In this document: piece by piece, positions 6,442 to 12,692 of the stretch
Position numbering within the stretch: position 1 is the first letter of the stretch
Layout of the letters: every line of letters starts with the position of its first letter
Assembly (NCBI GenBank): GCA_019136135.1
Contig: JAGVUR010000012.1
Location: 1-32,962, forward strand
Source of the DNA: Verrucomicrobiota bacterium
Lineage (GTDB): Bacteria; Verrucomicrobiota; Lentisphaeria; Oligosphaerales; Oligosphaeraceae
Direction of reading: 5' to 3'
DNA length: 32,962 nucleotides
Notes under the pieces: model-generated
What the model was told of the DNA's origin: nothing
Seen by the model: the letters and a program-made list of their open reading frames with translations, nothing else
Databases searched by the model: none
Program-made: the position numbers and the translations under genes

Positions 6442-7608
6442 ATGAAGCATTTGACCATCCTCAGCATTGCATTAAGTCTCTTGAGTTTCGGCTACGGAAT
6501 CCAGTACGTCGGCGATCGCACCGAAGTATGGGACCAAGGAAAACGCCTGGATTTCAACTGGTGCCTCCGCGAACAGCTCAAGCTGCACCCGTCGATGCAA
6601 CCTCAGGACCTGGTCAAACTATGCTTCCAGGGTGCCTTCGGAGCAGAACACGCCATCCCCGACGAAAACCGGGCAAAGCAATTCCTGGAAGACGAATTCA
6701 AACAGGTCGAACCTGCCCAAACACCATTGTTCGAAATCATTTCGCCAGACGTCTGTAGGGTCAACATCGCAGAATGGAAGCGACAAGGCATCCCCTCGAC
6801 TTGGCTGCTGAGACTCTTCATTGCCTCGACAAAGGTTGTACCCGACGGCAAGCAGGTCTTCGAGGACTTGATCGCAACCGCCACCGAAATGGTTCGCCAA
6901 AACCAAGCGCCTTTCACCCTAAAGGCCTGGGAAGACTACCTGACCGAGTATCGCAAAGGCGGAATCAAAGCCGTCCATCACTCGCAAGGTTATCGGGACG
7001 CCGAAAAACCAGCCTACCGAATCGCCAGCACCAGATTCATCCCACTCTTTAAAATCCTCGAAAAAGCCGCAACGCTCAACGACGGCACAGTAAGGGTCGT
7101 TGCTTTTGACGGACGATGCGCCTCAGGCAAAACCACCTTGGCGAAAATGCTCCAAAACATCCTCGATGCGGAACTGATACAAATGGACGACTTCTTCCTG
7201 CCTCCAGACGTAAGGACTCCAGAAAGGCAGGCGGAACCAGGAGGAAACGTCCACTACGAGCGATTCGAAACAGAAGTCCTCAAATACATCAAGCAACCTG
7301 TTCCCTTTGAATACAGGATATTCGACTGCAAAATCCAGGACTACAAAGGAAAACGCGAAATCGGCACCAAGCCCTGGCGAATCGTCGAAGGCGCCTACAG
7401 TTTCCATCCGCGCTTCGGCGACTACGCAGACATCCGGGTCTTCTCGAACATCAACCCACGCGAACAAATGCGTCGAATCCTCAATCGAAACGGAGAACAG
7501 CAGGCGCAAGTCTACAGGACACGATGGATCCCCATGGAGGAAAAGTACATCCGCACATGCAACGTGCTCCAACGATCACACATCGTCATCGGAGACGAAC
7601 TAGAATAG
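6442..7608 (+). CDS. Signal-like segment + unknown domain + uridine-kinase-type P-loop domain
   Basis: The protein has 388 residues. Residues 1-19 (MKHLTILSIALSLLSFGYG) look like a signal or anchor segment. An unrecognised domain follows (about 35-200) with FQGAFGAEHAIPDENRAKQF. From about 215 comes a kinase domain of the uridine kinase/phosphoribulokinase class: Walker A in VAFDGRCASGKTT, then LIQMDDFFLP with the acidic pair of this family, and WRIVEGAYSFHP. Such kinases are cytoplasmic, so an export-type N-terminus is odd. The start is supported by GAAGG 6 bases upstream and there is no early alternative ATG. The gene lies 17 bases after the TonB receptor. A role in handling the imported compound is only a guess. 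Confidence 0.65.
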   Translation: MKHLTILSIALSLLSFGYGIQYVGDRTEVWDQGKRLDFNWCLREQLKLHPSMQPQDLVKLCFQGAFGAEHAIPDENRAKQFLEDEFKQVEPAQTPLFEIISPDVCRVNIAEWKRQGIPSTWLLRLFIASTKVVPDGKQVFEDLIATATEMVRQNQAPFTLKAWEDYLTEYRKGGIKAVHHSQGYRDAEKPAYRIASTRFIPLFKILEKAATLNDGTVRVVAFDGRCASGKTTLAKMLQNILDAELIQMDDFFLPPDVRTPERQAEPGGNVHYERFETEVLKYIKQPVPFEYRIFDCKIQDYKGKREIGTKPWRIVEGAYSFHPRFGDYADIRVFSNINPREQMRRILNRNGEQQAQVYRTRWIPMEEKYIRTCNVLQRSHIVIGDELE

Positions 7609-7756
7609 ATGTATCGCATTACAAATCCCGAAGAAAACCCAATGGATGATCCATGGGAAGGTCAAGGTCTTGGCGCGAACTGACCGCCCGCAACCAAACG
7701 GACGGGACACGGATTCCCTGTGCCAAGGCATAAGTTCTTCCAGTGCAATGCATTAA

Positions 7757-8053
7757 GCTCGGAGAGCTGACATCATAAGCAACCTCAGGTGAAGCGAAGC
7801 GAAACCTGGGGAAAGGCATCCCCCACGAAATCAAAGCCTTGGAAAGGCGACACATGAACTGGCGCCGACATTGCGGATTAAAAGAAAATCAAAGGCGTTG
7901 GCTCAAGTGTCTTCATTCGCCGCGGCGCATATCGACGCCATGACAGTGCCGCCCTCCGAGGCTCCGGTCCTGGGGGGGAAGTGGCGACGCCCCAGGTTCC
8001 GCTGTGTTCCGTACAGCTTCACCAGGATTAAGCATGACATCGCCTCTCCAAGG
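7757..8053. repeat. Inverted pair of a diverged palindromic repeat
   Basis: The left copy (about 7757-7825) contains the hairpin CCTCAGGT (7783-7790) / ACCTGGGG (7804-7811). Its complement reads CCCCAGGTTTCGCT ... CTTCACC ... CTTATGATGTC ... CTCTCCGAGCT. The right copy (about 7958-8053) reads CCCCAGGTTCCGCT ... CTTCACC ... AGCATGACATC ... CTCTCCAAGGCT on the plus strand. The two are therefore diverged copies in opposite orientation. No protein is encoded. Confidence 0.6.
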
Positions 8054-8123
8054 CTATTCATGCCCAAAAAGCGTGATGTTCTGCGAGTACCTGCACTATG
8101 ATAATCTCCATCAGATATATTGC

Positions 8124-8145
8124 AAGCACCCGGGTGCTCATACCT
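8124..8145 (-). repeat. GAGCACCCGGGTGC palindrome, left copy
   Basis: Read on the minus strand the segment is AGGTATGAGCACCCGGGTGC followed by TT. Nearly the same sequence occurs on the plus strand at 12046-12072. The two copies therefore form an inverted pair around the 3.9-kb block with the methyltransferase/nuclease cassette. Confidence 0.6.
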
Positions 8146-8301
8146 TGTTTAGCTAATTGACGGGCGTCACGATGTCAACTGCTTTTTTTAGATTTATTGT
8201 TTTTCGCCTTTTTATATATGCTGGAATGGGCAAAAAAGTGCCACTTTAGCCATGTAAAATAGAAACAAGCAGACGCGGCAAGACCGCAAGGATCAAGAAA
8301 A

Positions 8302-8646
8302 ATGAACGAATCCAGTTTTGAAGTCATTCAACTCGCCCTCGAACTAATCAAACCCACCGCGTTGACGGCGGCGATGCAACCCGATGAAAAATGGGATGGT
8401 AAAATTCCAGCGGGAAATCGCTGCGAGTTGTGCGCCATGTTCCAAGACAACGGCAAATGCCAGCTTCTCAATGACACTCAACAGAAAAAACAGGTCTACA
8501 AAGACGAAGCCACGAGGCAAGCCATGGTCGGACTGACCCAATACGGCTATTGCAAGGAGTTCCGCTTCTCGCTCCCCGATGCACTTGTTCGCGCAGCATA
8601 CCTGCTCCAGGCGGGTGATTTCGCAATAGGCAGAACCGAATGGTGA
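8302..8646 (+). CDS. Small four-cysteine protein, function unknown
   Basis: This 114-residue protein has cysteines at C41, C44, C53 and C84 in the pattern NRCELCAMF...GKCQLL...GYCKEF. That spacing resembles small metal-binding modules (zinc knuckle or HiPIP-like 'GWC'), but the family was not recognised. The N-terminal half is helical (FEVIQLALELIKPTALTAAM). No signal peptide or membrane segment is seen. AAGGA lies 9 bases before the ATG. It stands alone between repeat-rich gaps, about 260 bases upstream of the methyltransferase gene, and may or may not belong to that cassette. Confidence 0.6.
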   Translation: MNESSFEVIQLALELIKPTALTAAMQPDEKWDGKIPAGNRCELCAMFQDNGKCQLLNDTQQKKQVYKDEATRQAMVGLTQYGYCKEFRFSLPDALVRAAYLLQAGDFAIGRTEW

Positions 8647-8802
8647 GATAAAAAGCAAAAATGACGCTTTGGCGCATTCCAATCTCAATAAATTGCTACT
8701 GCAAAAGAAGGATAACAAATAAAGTTAGAAGAAATGCATGTACAACTTCCGATGCAAAGTGAAAAAACTTGGATAAAGGGTTACATTTATCGGAGAAATT
8801 TC

Positions 8803-8869
8803 ATTGCCTGTCGGAATTGCGATTGTGTGGTCCAAAGCGCAATGTGTTCTAATCCGATAAGCAGGCAAT
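8803..8869 (+). promoter_or_regulatory. Extended stem-loop upstream of the methyltransferase gene
   Basis: A continuous 19-base left side (8803-8821) pairs in three blocks with the right side: ATTGCCTG with CAGGCAAT (8862-8869), TCGGA with TCCGA (8853-8857), and ATTGCG with CGCAAT (8838-8843). Small bulges separate the right-hand blocks. It ends 37 bases before the methyltransferase start. It could be a leader structure, an operator region for controlled methylase expression, or the remnant of a mobile palindrome. Confidence 0.6.
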
Positions 8870-8906
8870 GGAGACCGAATAATGATAACAAGATAGTAGG
8901 ATGGAT

Positions 8907-10046
8907 ATGGGAAACAGGAATCTTACAAGAGCCAAGAGAGCAAAAAACGATGAGTTTTATACCCAATATGACGATATTCAGAAAGAGATAGAAGCCTATT
9001 TAGAATTCAATCCCGACGTTTTTCGCGGCAAAGTGGTGTATTGCAATTGCGATGATCCGTTTGAAAGCAATTTCTTCCGGTACTTTGCGCTCAATTTCAA
9101 TAGACTCGGCTTGAAACAGCTTATCACGACCAGCTTCGATCCATCATATATAGCCAATACACAACTGGAATTGTTTGACTTTGATAATTTCGAAAAGCCC
9201 AAAGGACGCCCCAAAGCCTCTGCCAATATATTTATTATCAATCAAATATATGACATGGACGAAGACGGCGAGTTCAACCTGAAGGATATCGCTATGCAGT
9301 TGAAGGCTAACAAGCAAAACGAATGGATGCCGTTGAAAGGCAATGGCGATTTTCGAAGCGATGAGTGTATCGCATTGCTGAAGCAAGCGGATGTCGTGGT
9401 GACAAACCCGCCATTCAGCTTGTTTCGGGAATATGTAAAACAACATTTTGATTACAATAAGCAGTTCCTGATTATTGGCAACATGAACGCAATCACCTAT
9501 AAAGAAGTTTTTCCAAAGATTCAAGAAAACAAAATGTGGCTTGGTGCAACAGGGAACGGAAGCGACATGGTTTTTGCTGTGCCAAATGGAACGGAGATTG
9601 CAGATAGCGATAGAAAAAAAGCAGCTCGTCTTGGCTATGAAGGTAATTATACTAGGCTTGGAAACTCATGCTGGTTCACCAATCTTGATCATGGAAGACG
9701 TCACCAACCACTTCCGCTGATGACCATGGCTGAGAATTTGAAATACAGCAGACATAAGGAAATCAGGGGTAAAGAGGCATACGATAAATACGACAATTAC
9801 GATGCCATTGAAATACCTTTTACGGATGCGATTCCGAGTGATTATGACGGCGTAATGGGTGTCCCGATTAGTTTTTTGGATAAATACTGTCCTGAACAGT
9901 TTGAGATTGTTGGTGCTACAGAAAGCGAAGACAGAGGATTTTCAAACGGGCTTTGGAATGAAAGTAGCGGTGTCAGTCAAGCGTTAGTTAACTCAAGACG
10001 AGTTTATAAGCGTCTTTTTATACGCCATGTTTCAATATTGGGATAA
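8907..10046 (+). CDS. EcoRI-family adenine-specific DNA methyltransferase
   Basis: The protein has about 379 residues. It begins MGNRNLTRAKRAKNDEFYTQ and has VVYCNCDDPFESNFFRYF near residues 43-60, both typical of the M.EcoRI family (EcoRI_methylase). The catalytic N6-adenine motif NPPF sits in VVVTNPPFSLFREYV (about residues 164-178). The C-terminal part (NSCWFTNLDH, GVPISFLDKY, QFEIVGATES) is also family-typical. The ATG at 8907 is preferred over 8901 because AGGA (8897-8900, reading into G) gives a normal 6-base spacing. It should modify adenine in a specific site and protect host DNA from a partner nuclease. The next gene starts 6 bases after its stop. Codon use is AT-richer than in the flanking genes, suggesting transfer. 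Confidence 0.9.
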   Translation: MGNRNLTRAKRAKNDEFYTQYDDIQKEIEAYLEFNPDVFRGKVVYCNCDDPFESNFFRYFALNFNRLGLKQLITTSFDPSYIANTQLELFDFDNFEKPKGRPKASANIFIINQIYDMDEDGEFNLKDIAMQLKANKQNEWMPLKGNGDFRSDECIALLKQADVVVTNPPFSLFREYVKQHFDYNKQFLIIGNMNAITYKEVFPKIQENKMWLGATGNGSDMVFAVPNGTEIADSDRKKAARLGYEGNYTRLGNSCWFTNLDHGRRHQPLPLMTMAENLKYSRHKEIRGKEAYDKYDNYDAIEIPFTDAIPSDYDGVMGVPISFLDKYCPEQFEIVGATESEDRGFSNGLWNESSGVSQALVNSRRVYKRLFIRHVSILG

Positions 10047-10052
10047 CTTAGA

Positions 10053-11216
10053 ATGAAAACTACTTTAGTTACTGACATTACTATCAAAGACGTCTGCGAT
10101 GGGTTTGTCTACAATGAACTTGAGGGTAAAGGTCTCTTTGGACTTTCAGGCAAACTCACAATTCAGCCGAAATACCAGCGCAATTATATTTATGCTTCAG
10201 ACGGCGGCAAAAAAGAAATGGCCGTCATTGATTCCCTGTTAAAGGGGTATCCCATTGGCCTGATTTACTTTAACAAGGTTTCTGACGGTAAGCTGGAGGT
10301 ATTGGATGGACAGCAACGCATTACCAGTTTTGGGCGTTTTGTAAATAATAAATTTGCTTTTAAAGGCGAAGATGGCCAGATACAGTATTTTAGAGGAATG
10401 GCAGAAGACAAAAAGACCAAGATTTTGAATACGAAACTGCTTATTTACGAATGCGAAGGCACGGAAACTGAAATCATAGACTGGTTTAAGACAATCAACA
10501 TTGCCGGAATAGAGCTGAATCGTCAGGAAATGCGTAATGCCTCGTATTCCGGAAATTTTGTAACGCTCGCCAAAGAAGAATTCAGCAATAGCCAAAACGC
10601 CAATATCCAGAAATGGAGCGCATATATAAATGGCAGCGTCAACCGCCAGGATTTCCTGGAATGCGCACTTAATTGGGTGAGCAAGGGGAATATCGACGCT
10701 TACATGAGCCTTCATCGCAACGACACGAATATAAATGAACTCAAAAAATACTTTAACAGCGTGCTTGATTGGGTGTCGGCCGTATTTACAGATGTCGAGA
10801 GGGAGATGCGCGGACTCGAATGGGGCCGATTGTACGAAAAGTATCGCAATACGGCATACAATCCCACCAAGGTTTCTGTTGATGTGCAGAAGCTCCTAGA
10901 AGATCCGTATGTCAAGAGCAAGAAAGGAATCTTTGAATACATTCTTGGAGGGTCGACAGATACAAAACTGCTGGATATTCGTGTATTTGATGAGGCCACA
11001 AAGAAAAAGGTGTATGCAATCCAAACCAAGCAAGCCAAAGATAAGTCAAATTGCCCACTTTGCGCTGTTGGACACGATGCCAACAAGAAAAGAATCTGGA
11101 AACTTGCAGAAATGGATGCGGATCATGTAACTGCATGGAGCAAAGGTGGCGAGACAAATATCGAGAATTGTCAGATGTTATGCAAGACTCACAACCGCGT
11201 AAAGGGAAATCGGTAA
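10053..11216 (+). CDS. DUF262 (GmrSD/ParB-like) protein with C-terminal HNH nuclease
   Basis: The protein has 387 residues. The N-terminal DUF262 domain shows its two hallmarks: PKYQRNYIY (39-47) and LDGQQRITS (84-92), the latter the ParB/Srx-like DGQQR motif linked to nucleotide hydrolysis in GmrSD-type and BrxU enzymes. The C-terminus is a zinc-type HNH domain: C334-x2-C337, DADH (355-358), N369, C373-x3-C377 and KTHNR (378-382). All expected catalytic and zinc residues are present, so it should be an active nuclease. It is translationally linked to the EcoRI-family methyltransferase 6 bases upstream. The pair could be a restriction-modification system with an unusual endonuclease, or a modification-guided defense. 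GmrSD enzymes usually attack modified DNA without a paired methylase, which makes this pairing notable. Confidence 0.88.
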   Translation: MKTTLVTDITIKDVCDGFVYNELEGKGLFGLSGKLTIQPKYQRNYIYASDGGKKEMAVIDSLLKGYPIGLIYFNKVSDGKLEVLDGQQRITSFGRFVNNKFAFKGEDGQIQYFRGMAEDKKTKILNTKLLIYECEGTETEIIDWFKTINIAGIELNRQEMRNASYSGNFVTLAKEEFSNSQNANIQKWSAYINGSVNRQDFLECALNWVSKGNIDAYMSLHRNDTNINELKKYFNSVLDWVSAVFTDVEREMRGLEWGRLYEKYRNTAYNPTKVSVDVQKLLEDPYVKSKKGIFEYILGGSTDTKLLDIRVFDEATKKKVYAIQTKQAKDKSNCPLCAVGHDANKKRIWKLAEMDADHVTAWSKGGETNIENCQMLCKTHNRVKGNR

Positions 11217-11865
11217 AGAGTTCTTGATGACGATGCAATGTAGCAGGTTTCGTCGATGACGACTTCAACCAAAGCCTTTCCCAAGACCCCAGGCTATTTG
11301 CCGTCGCCCGTTGAAATCTTCTACCAGCTTTTTGGGTAGAACTTATCTATGGCTATACCAATTGCATAGATTTGCTTTTTTAGGGACAGAAAGGCACTAA
11401 AAAACCATTGCTATTTTTAATTTGCTATAAATCCGAACGCTAAGCCCGCATGCGTGCAAAGAGACAGGAAATCATTGATTATTGGTTGCTCATCTTTGTC
11501 GCTTCGCCTTCGCACAACAGCAAACAGGGATGCACGCAGAAAAACGCAACGGAAGCCGCCTAGGGCTTGTTTCGGCAAGCGACCGCTAAACCACTGGCGC
11601 AACGGCAAAGCGCCCAGATGAGCCTTCTGTTCGCCTTTTTCGGCTTTGGCGCTGTTTTCATTGCTCGTGTCTTTCCATTTGTCGTCGGCTCTTACGTCCC
11701 GGAACCTGAAAATGAAAAAAAACAGGCGAAGAGGCTAAATGACCATGCGGGAAGATTACATGCCGGGGGGCCGGGCAAAATTCTCAGCTGGGAGGAATGG
11801 GTCCCCATATAGGCGGGAAACGCCCATTTTCACTACTTATCAACTTCATTTTCAACGACTTGCAA

Positions 11866-11997
11866 AAGTTAAGTACAGATAAGTACAGTTTTTCGGGCTT
11901 TTCCGTCGCCGTCTCGCCGTCCGTCATCACCTTCCTTGCCCTAGCCTTCGACACCCTGATTCAGGTACGAAAAAAACTGTACTTATCTGTTACTTAT
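11866..11997. repeat. Long inverted repeat AAGTACAGATAAGTACAG
   Basis: The left arm at 11868-11894 (GTTAAGTACAGATAAGTACAG then TTTTTC) is complementary to the right arm at 11969-11997 (GAAAAAAACTGTACTTATCT then GTTACTTAT), with one-base length differences. The spacer is about 74 bases and contains no gene. Each arm holds two copies of a GTAC-centred unit. Confidence 0.75.
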
Positions 11998-12045
11998 CTC
12001 ATAAAATTACTTTTTATTTTAGGCATCTTGACTGTGTGTCATCGC

Positions 12046-12072
12046 AGGTACGAGCACCCGGGGTGCCCGTAC
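12046..12072 (+). repeat. GAGCACCCGGGTGC palindrome, right copy
   Basis: The sequence AGGTACGAGCACCCGGGGTG, followed by CCCGTAC, is nearly self-complementary. It matches the minus-strand copy at 8124-8145. Confidence 0.6.
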
Positions 12073-12129
12073 TTAAAAGCCGTTTTGATCTGTAGAGAGC
12101 GGATAAGCCTGACCAGTCCAGACAAGTTC

Positions 12130-12189
12130 GGACGGGTCGGACGGGTCGGACGGGTCGGACGGGGTCGGACGGGTCAGACGGGTCGGACC
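12130..12189. repeat. 9-bp GC-rich minisatellite (GGACGGGTC)n
   Basis: About six tandem copies of GGACGGGTC run from 12130. One unit is lengthened by a G and one carries a G-to-A change. The unit length is a multiple of three, so open frames through it are artefacts of the repeat (Gly-Arg-Val on the plus strand, Ser-Asp-Pro on the minus strand). Confidence 0.9.
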
Positions 12190-12207
12190 TAAGGCATTGG
12201 CTTTCTT

Positions 12208-12291
12208 CTGGAAAACTACCCCGAAACCAAAGCGAAATTTTCACACTTTCGTACTCAAAATGTATGTGACATGCCTCCCGAGTTCGGCATT
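12208..12291 (+). repeat. Dispersed intergenic repeat, copy C
   Basis: This 84-base segment begins CTGGAAAAC and contains CCGAAACCAAAGCGAAATTT, TCACACTTTCGTACTCAAAA and ATGTGACATGCC, ending in GAGTTCGGCATT. It is repeated almost exactly 217 bases downstream (copy D) and shares its core with copies A and B near 3.9-4.1 kb. Confidence 0.9.
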
Positions 12292-12297
12292 GGAGAT

Positions 12298-12375
12298 CAT
12301 GGGACTGAGACCTATGGGACACATGGGACGAATGCGACCCATGGGACTGGGACATGGGACTGGGACTATGGGACG
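12298..12375. repeat. Degenerate ATGGGAC tandem repeats
   Basis: Many imperfect units of CATGGGAC and CTGGGAC follow one another here, including near-palindromic parts with ACCCATGGGAC. The block lies exactly between direct copies C and D of the dispersed repeat. Confidence 0.75.
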
Positions 12376-12424
12376 TGACGTCGGGTTTTATGACCATGAA
12401 GGCTTCGGAGCTTGACCTTTTCCA

Positions 12425-12508
12425 CTGGAAAACCATCCCGAAACCAAAGCGAAATTTTCACACTTTCGTACTCAAAATGTATGTGACATGCCGCCTGAGT
12501 TCGGCATT
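12425..12508 (+). repeat. Dispersed intergenic repeat, copy D
   Basis: This is a direct duplicate of 12208-12291 with only a few substitutions. Both start CTGGAAAAC and end GAGTTCGGCATT. Together the copies bracket the ATGGGAC minisatellite. Confidence 0.9.
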
Positions 12509-12580
12509 TACTTTTTAAGGTTCAAAGCACAAAAGTTAGCTGAAAGTTAGACGAACACTTTTTGCGCACCCAAAAGTAAA

Positions 12581-12615: not shown

Positions 12616-12692
12616 TGGCAACCCGGGCGCGGCTCGAACGCGCTACCTACTGCTTAGAAGGCAGTTGCTCTATCCGGGTGAGCTACCGGGTC
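12616..12692 (-). tRNA. tRNA-Arg (anticodon TCT), CCA encoded
   Basis: On the minus strand a complete 77-base cloverleaf can be drawn. The acceptor stem pairs GACCCGG with CCGGGTT, the D arm is GCTC/GAGC, and the anticodon stem pairs ACTGC with GCAGT around loop CTTCTAA, giving anticodon TCT. The T arm pairs GCGCG with CGCGC around TTCGAGC. A discriminator G and an encoded CCA complete it. The anticodon reads AGA/AGG, so the amino acid is arginine. The tRNA is transcribed toward the repeat-rich block, so its 3' end, a classic integration target, faces the methyltransferase/nuclease side. Confidence 0.97.

Follow-up and report, generated by a model that had tools for sequence, protein, structure and literature searches.

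The stretch of DNA analysed here (the window, 32,962 nucleotides of contig JAGVUR010000012.1 from a Verrucomicrobiota bacterium) carries on its forward strand an EcoRI-family (PF13651) adenine DNA methyltransferase, which we call M (8907..10046, 379 amino acids (aa)), and a DUF262 (GmrSD_N)-HNH protein, which we call R (10053..11216, 387 aa) and which is predicted to be a nucleoside triphosphate-gated nuclease effector. Comparison with relatives reveals two shuffled cassettes in M, V1 (9543..9662, residues 215-254) and V2 (9915..10004, residues 339-368), beside an R with no matching variation, and this is what is new here. The division of labour seen in Type I and Type III restriction, with exchangeable cassettes in the modifying part and a constant nuclease-like protein alongside, is present in these two proteins. 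If R stays constant while M changes target, R either needs no target of its own or gets its target from M, and for this reason we prefer a guided nuclease: with a probability of roughly 0.6, R would be a constant effector directed by M, following Type I/III-like logic without a helicase or an S subunit. That the pair is a restriction system is very probable; that R is directed by M is, taken by itself, reasonably probable. A sequence-only reading of the same DNA overlooked both the swappable cassettes and the fact that R is constant, the two features with the greatest bearing on mechanism.

Two variable cassettes beside a constant partner

The domain content of both proteins agrees with what had been read from the letters alone, namely a complete methyltransferase and a DUF262 protein with intact motifs. 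M matches PF13651 (EcoRI_methylase) over profile positions 1-344 of 345 (expect value (E) 2.3e-124; 415.6 bits, cut-off 26.4) and its catalytic NPPF motif (9405..9416, residues 169-172, counted from 8901) is unchanged across 67 aligned sequences. R matches PF03235 (GmrSD_N, 1.5e-19) and PF01844 (HNH, 6.2e-07). Its Pfam matches at E 0.01 are of the GmrSD_N and HNH types only, with no helicase or translocase and no PF07510 (DUF1524), the C-terminal domain being PF01844. The DGQQR motif of R (10305..10319, residues 85-89), predicted to bind nucleotide, and D357/H358, N372, H380 and N381 of the HNH region (11052..11213, by Pfam and alignment, with Cys pairs, D357-H358, N372 and H380-N381) are unchanged across 53 aligned sequences. 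No S-type Pfam match was found among the five window open reading frames (ORFs) scanned (6442-12192). PADLOC models both proteins as parts of Type II systems, M by MTase_II (PDLC03297, 2.1e-102, nearly full length) and R by REase_II (PDLC03418, 1.7e-82, residues 9-386); because both halves are matched, the pair itself is not new and we do not claim it as such.

In a first set of 74 pairs (from 82 loci, after setting aside 4 that lack M, 3 whose M is cut by the contig end and 1 truncated case), entropy over 15-residue blocks of M reaches 2.46 in V1 and 2.73 in V2, and mean pairwise identity is 0.23 in V1 and 0.10 in V2 as opposed to 0.70-0.75 in the conserved stretches and 0.70 in the M frame. 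Entropy of R in the same pairs is low (mean 0.56, highest 15-residue block 1.22) and its profile has no region comparable to V1 or V2. In a further clade (clade B), comprising 20 pairs chosen through M, M entropy again peaks at V1 and V2 (2.16 each), along with a third stretch taken up below and a ragged N-terminus.

Cassettes were clustered in 91 pairs, consisting of the 74 minus a duplicate, 15 from viral contigs and 3 from a phylum sample. At similarity 0.4 they form 12 V1 classes and 29 V2 classes occurring in 59 combinations, the window having V1 class 1 and V2 class 8; between similarity 0.3 and 0.5 the class numbers range over 7-13 for V1 and 27-32 for V2. Two of the loci (L096 and L097; loci, genomes and contigs are given as L, G and C numbers) are identical, and the 90 pairs left without L097 still give 12, 29 and 59. 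In all likelihood V1 and V2 are target-recognition cassettes, and from their behaviour we infer that they are the parts of M that read DNA. At L099 (1534-4991) two tandem EcoRI-family methylases (V1-2/V2-3 and V1-1/V2-26) precede one R, which may serve two specificities there.

R shows no variation that goes with the cassettes. We compared 60 locus pairs with R identities of 88% or more, and 54 of them have a difference in V1, in V2 or in both; 12 share V2, 14 share V1 and 6 share both (61, 13, 15 and 7 before the duplicate L097 was dropped). R was scanned in 47 windows, each 16 residues long, after regression on overall R identity and with a permutation control, and no R window tracked V1 (best r 0.069 against a permutation 95% level of 0.077) or V2 (0.036 against 0.060). 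The same kind of scan on M reached 0.87 and 0.69 in the cassette windows.

A natural exchange of V2 can be seen in the host itself, which carries a second M-R pair on contig C140 (G000:C140:70475-72834). Compared with the window pair, V1 and V2 of the C140 pair have identities of 0.12 and 0.05, the M frame 0.94 and R 0.89 (89% identical). When the C140 pair is set against the orthologous locus in a congener, G208:C23 (the L138/L139 comparison), the two alignment blocks that border the swap show identities of 97.8% (10.0 kb) and 98.2% (3.8 kb), and the interval from M start to R end differs only by one 378-bp block with 197 differences plus two point changes in R. What the block exchanges is the C-terminal part of M, starting near residue 279 and including V2, together with the first few codons of R. 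The G208 (C23) pair is identical to that of L005. We also considered assembly junk as the source of the V2 difference between L002 and L005 and rejected it, as both V2 types recur elsewhere (class 9 in L049, L069 and L121; class 12 in L094).

Linkage of the two genes and the place of EcoRI

Homologues at E 0.001 number at least 8000 for M and at least 8000 for R, so that the pair cannot be treated as a rare oddity. In a genome set found by R (close relatives of R, 80 loci kept of 346), M lies upstream of R on the same strand at 76 of 80 loci, and three of the four misses are short of upstream sequence (L007, 198 nt; L032, 738 nt; L067, 60 nt). Viral contigs found by R carry M in 15 of 16 cases, the remaining one having 90 nt upstream. 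R occurs in 82 plasmid records, and 40 of the 40 listed also carry M (39 of them among 60 listed of 98 M records, and one judged by its own record's annotation); on one plasmid the genes are 2.6 kb apart. On an Enterococcus dispar plasmid (L148, 61-4699) a predicted drug-resistance gene, annotated optrA, lies between M and R, and the genome of Flavobacterium phage laban6-1 has an M-R pair (L146, 2781-5143).

Several samples address the linkage from other sides. In 288 genomes of the window's phylum, with R counted at E 1e-20, 40 have M, 33 have R and 32 have both. Each of the 33 full-length R genes there shares its contig and strand with an M, whole or in part, which lies within about 210 nt in 32 of 33 and at 7.8 kb in G046; M is broken or partial in G015, G282, G253 (C54) and G164 (C54), where the G164 M falls below the family cut-off. 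This sample led us to reject hitch-hiking alone as the cause of linkage. Starting from M in the same phylum, R lies within 1.5 kb at 25 of 29 loci (one R broken), the exceptions being an R remnant (L126), an R 7.8 kb away (L119) and two loci without R (L112, L123); the gene order is R-M at L108. In the phylum of G290 (the genome of L032, labelled Patescibacteria) M occurs in 39 of 379 genomes, and among the 30 loci read, the flank contains a complete or partial R in 26 and R.EcoRI in one, two have neither and one has no flank. Spacing is tight, with a gap or overlap of at most 30 nt in 75 of 96 loci with both genes, including 26 four-base overlaps and 29 one-base gaps.

The sequence-only reading had said beforehand that a lack of recurrent pairing would count against it. 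The pairing does recur, M standing beside R in 76/80 loci and R beside M in 25/29 and 26/30, and its proposal that the DUF262-HNH protein is the restriction partner holds as far as recurrent linkage across phyla is concerned; a role of R in cutting is predicted from sequence. Recurrence is weaker in viral contigs found by M.EcoRI, where an R frame of more than 400 nt accompanies M at 32 of 76 loci, 3 loci have R.EcoRI, 30 have neither nuclease and 11 have too little flank (L149 and L222, counted with neither, had shorter R.EcoRI or R matches). M can thus stand alone, notably on viral contigs, and full-length R hardly ever does. The cassette had also been called unusual, which it is not: the pair is common, in bacteria of many phyla, and DUF262-HNH is the usual partner of M in both phyla that were sampled starting from M.

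The relation to EcoRI gives the cassettes a known reference point. M.EcoRI reads GAATTC. In the M annotated beside the type-2 restriction enzyme EcoRI on an E. coli plasmid, V1 is 70% identical (37 residues) to class 2 and V2 65% identical (17 residues) to class 11, with the frame averaging 54% (highest 62%); the normalised cassette scores, 0.72 for V1 and 0.58 for V2, compare with maxima of 0.18 and 0.28 in 500 shuffles. R.EcoRI homologues, sought in 106 loci, are found only beside Ms with both EcoRI-type cassettes (L152, L153, L154 and L224; a shorter frame at L149). Where an EcoRI-type V2 is combined with another V1, a DUF262 R is present at L167, L168, L226 and L230, and where the EcoRI-type V1 (class 2) is combined with another V2, a DUF262 R is present in all 14 of the 14 class-2 pairs of the clustering set. 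No DUF262-linked M with both EcoRI cassettes occurs in the sets examined, and DUF262-HNH is seen with 59 combinations other than the EcoRI pair.

A proposed methylase-directed nuclease and its alternatives

We propose that M would read a DNA site through V1 and V2, each contributing part of the site, and would methylate adenine at that site in host DNA. On incoming DNA with the site unmethylated, an M-R complex would form, and nucleotide binding or hydrolysis by DUF262 (DGQQR) would license the HNH domain to cut. In GmrSD, BrxU and SspE, published work connects the DGQQR motif of the DUF262 domain with the use of nucleotides (PMC4619093, PMC10952713). R would then be a restriction nuclease without target specificity of its own, directed by M, and modification and restriction would shift jointly whenever one cassette is exchanged. 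Mobile target-recognition cassettes are a feature shared with Type I (HsdS) and Type III (Mod/Res) systems, and HsdS has two according to PMC3983042; unlike Type III, R has no helicase or translocase match, and unlike Type I (HsdRMS) there is no separate S protein, both cassettes lying inside an EcoRI-type M.

The PADLOC labels imply a conventional Type II system, in which R by itself recognises the same sequence as M. R does match REase_II full length, and solitary Ms together with almost no solitary full-length R make up the classical Type II pattern; however, no R window varies with the M cassettes, virtually identical R adjoins two different V2 cassettes, and R.EcoRI, a true Type II enzyme, is seen with a single cassette pair, so we regard this alternative as unlikely. 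The EcoRI system has a methylase of the same family, its M cassettes being closest to V1 class 2 and V2 class 11, but its nuclease is a different protein, of fixed specificity and encoded upstream of M. The PADLOC models PDLC03418 and PDLC03297, for all their nearly full-length matches, as returned say nothing on cassettes or on R targeting. Alternatively, V1 and V2 might not be target-recognition elements at all, with specificity residing in the conserved frame or in a third stretch and being the same in all systems. The constancy of R would be in keeping with a single shared target, and residues 88-122 form a third variable stretch in M, but cassette classes recur across distant frames and phyla with localised swapping, and R.EcoRI is seen with one cassette pair only; we give this only a slim chance, the smallest of the alternatives considered.

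R could instead be a Type IV enzyme like GmrSD or BrxU that cuts phage-modified DNA independently of M, the genes merely travelling together. It has the DUF262 with DGQQR and the His-metal-finger (HNH) nuclease domain of GmrSD, BrxU and SspE, enzymes that respond to DNA modifications according to PMC12707154 and PMC10952713. Unlike them it has HNH PF01844 rather than DUF1524 and a linked methylase; full-length R without M is nearly absent (33/33 with M or an M piece) and M precedes R in 76 of 80 loci, the reverse order being seen at one locus (L108). We consider independent action very unlikely. That R recognises DNA marked by this very methylase, as had also been suggested, is disfavoured, because the host's own genome would then be the target. 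A guard model, in which M restrains a toxic R that is released when a phage inhibits M and cassettes vary to escape phage inhibitors, would agree with the tight linkage of M and R and with the abortive-infection-type genes nested between them in relatives. Against it, both cassettes of M.EcoRI, a GAATTC methylase, are closest to classes of this series and the catalytic NPPF is invariant, and we hold it to be, if anything, slightly less probable than independent Type IV action.

A directed R, which we prefer to these alternatives, also has observations that weigh against it. The third, milder variable stretch of M (9162-9266, residues 88-122) has a mean identity of 0.44 and is two-peaked, and in clade B it is more strongly variable (entropy 2.03 and 1.86); residues 88-122 may contribute to specificity too, and the swap and class tests do not rest on them. 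R in clade B has diverged as much as M (0.60 and 0.58), and its most variable full block reaches 1.84; the greater conservation of R in the first set is partly a product of selection, because those loci were chosen by R. V1-V2 combinations are fewer than random pairing would give (59 versus 73.8, standard deviation 2.6), so ancestry still shows, and the correlation null for R rests on about 90 related pairs, which limits its weight. At L018 (3405-5623) R clearly stands by itself, since its motifs are intact, a RhuM-like gene immediately precedes it, and neither the contig nor the genome examined contains an M; the one R-only genome of the phylum sample, G222, has a 225-codon R fragment at a contig start and no M, and for a truncated R on G164 C9 (residues 7-299) no M is listed on the contig. 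The R.EcoRI control sample is small, and no nuclease was found at two loci with both EcoRI-type cassettes (L150, L151) and two with an EcoRI-type V2 and another V1 (L158, L169). Finally, the predicted structures lend little, that of R being unusable (predicted local distance difference test (pLDDT) 44) and that of M middling (pLDDT 66).

Genomic setting, nested genes and implications

The window pair sits inside a lineage-specific insertion of 4.9 kb (7612..12520) at a place where G208 has 16 bp, the G208 flanks being ~97% (left) and ~93% (right) identical to those of the window. The insertion is low in G+C content (GC); over the pair, in 1-kb windows, GC is 0.41-0.44 compared with 0.475-0.574 outside 8001-12000, and M and R are co-directional with a 6-base spacer, in agreement with the sequence-only description of two adjacent AT-rich genes. 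The M ORF, ending at 10046 on the forward strand, is open from an ATG at 8901 (381 aa) or at 8907 (379 aa), and 8907 is the likelier start because the database record P0121 is 379 aa long and aligned relatives mostly begin M(A/G/P)N there. Upstream of M within the insertion is a 114-aa ORF (8302-8646) with no Pfam or NCBIfam match at E 0.01. Dispersed repeats with many matching places in G208 lie near the insertion edges (~7725-8202 and 12123-12493), a short tandem repeat of about 9 bases, GACGGGTCG-like, occupies 12121-12188, and a 90-base direct repeat lies at 12202-12508, with a tRNA-Arg gene nearby (12616-12692, reverse strand).

The window pair has no cargo between M and R. In relatives the interval can be large, exceeding 500 bp in 18 of 76 genome loci, and 16 of these 18 bear candidate-phyla names that we take to be Patescibacteria. 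Of the nested proteins, 20 were compared with Pfam and ten of those also with PADLOC. The scans placed between M and R: RhuM (L012, L073), Fic (L014, L065), two ThsB-type TIR proteins (L022), a cyclase of the cyclic-oligonucleotide-based antiphage signalling system (CBASS) type with a Cap15-type effector (L065), HEPN AbiU2 (L031; below cut-off at L073), Bro-N/AntA (L050, L059), T5orf172 (L026), a below-cut-off HATPase with a STAS-like protein (L042) and a weak transposase match (L031). No Pfam match was obtained for the nested proteins of L052 and L066 or for the first one of L012. In the window's own phylum, the 7.8-kb M-R interval of G046 encodes a HATPase, an HTH-M78 protein, a PIN protein, a CBASS-type cyclase, a C5 methylase and an NgoFVII-like nuclease. 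Defence genes or systems between M and R are also present at L283, and the kinds across loci include a second restriction-modification (R-M) system.

An open-access literature search found no description of the M-R pair or of cassette shuffling in the EcoRI family (REBASE and subscription papers lay outside its scope). On somewhat better than even odds, we suggest that these systems form a very widespread, unrecognised class in which a two-cassette EcoRI-type methylase guides one universal nucleotide-gated DUF262-HNH nuclease, and in which M and R also bookend nested defence systems (CBASS, Thoeris-type TIR proteins, a second R-M system, Fic and RhuM). If so, current models would be placing a very large M-directed family under Type II, and its specificity would be readable from two short cassettes. 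EcoRI's methylase would then represent a single cassette combination among many shuffled ones, and the usual partner in that series would not be EcoRI-like. The pair would constitute a compact two-protein restriction module with a target altered by cassette exchange, and would show the coupling of DUF262, known from modification-sensing enzymes, to site recognition by a methylase. The series itself offers natural experiments in the form of near-isogenic systems that differ in one cassette.

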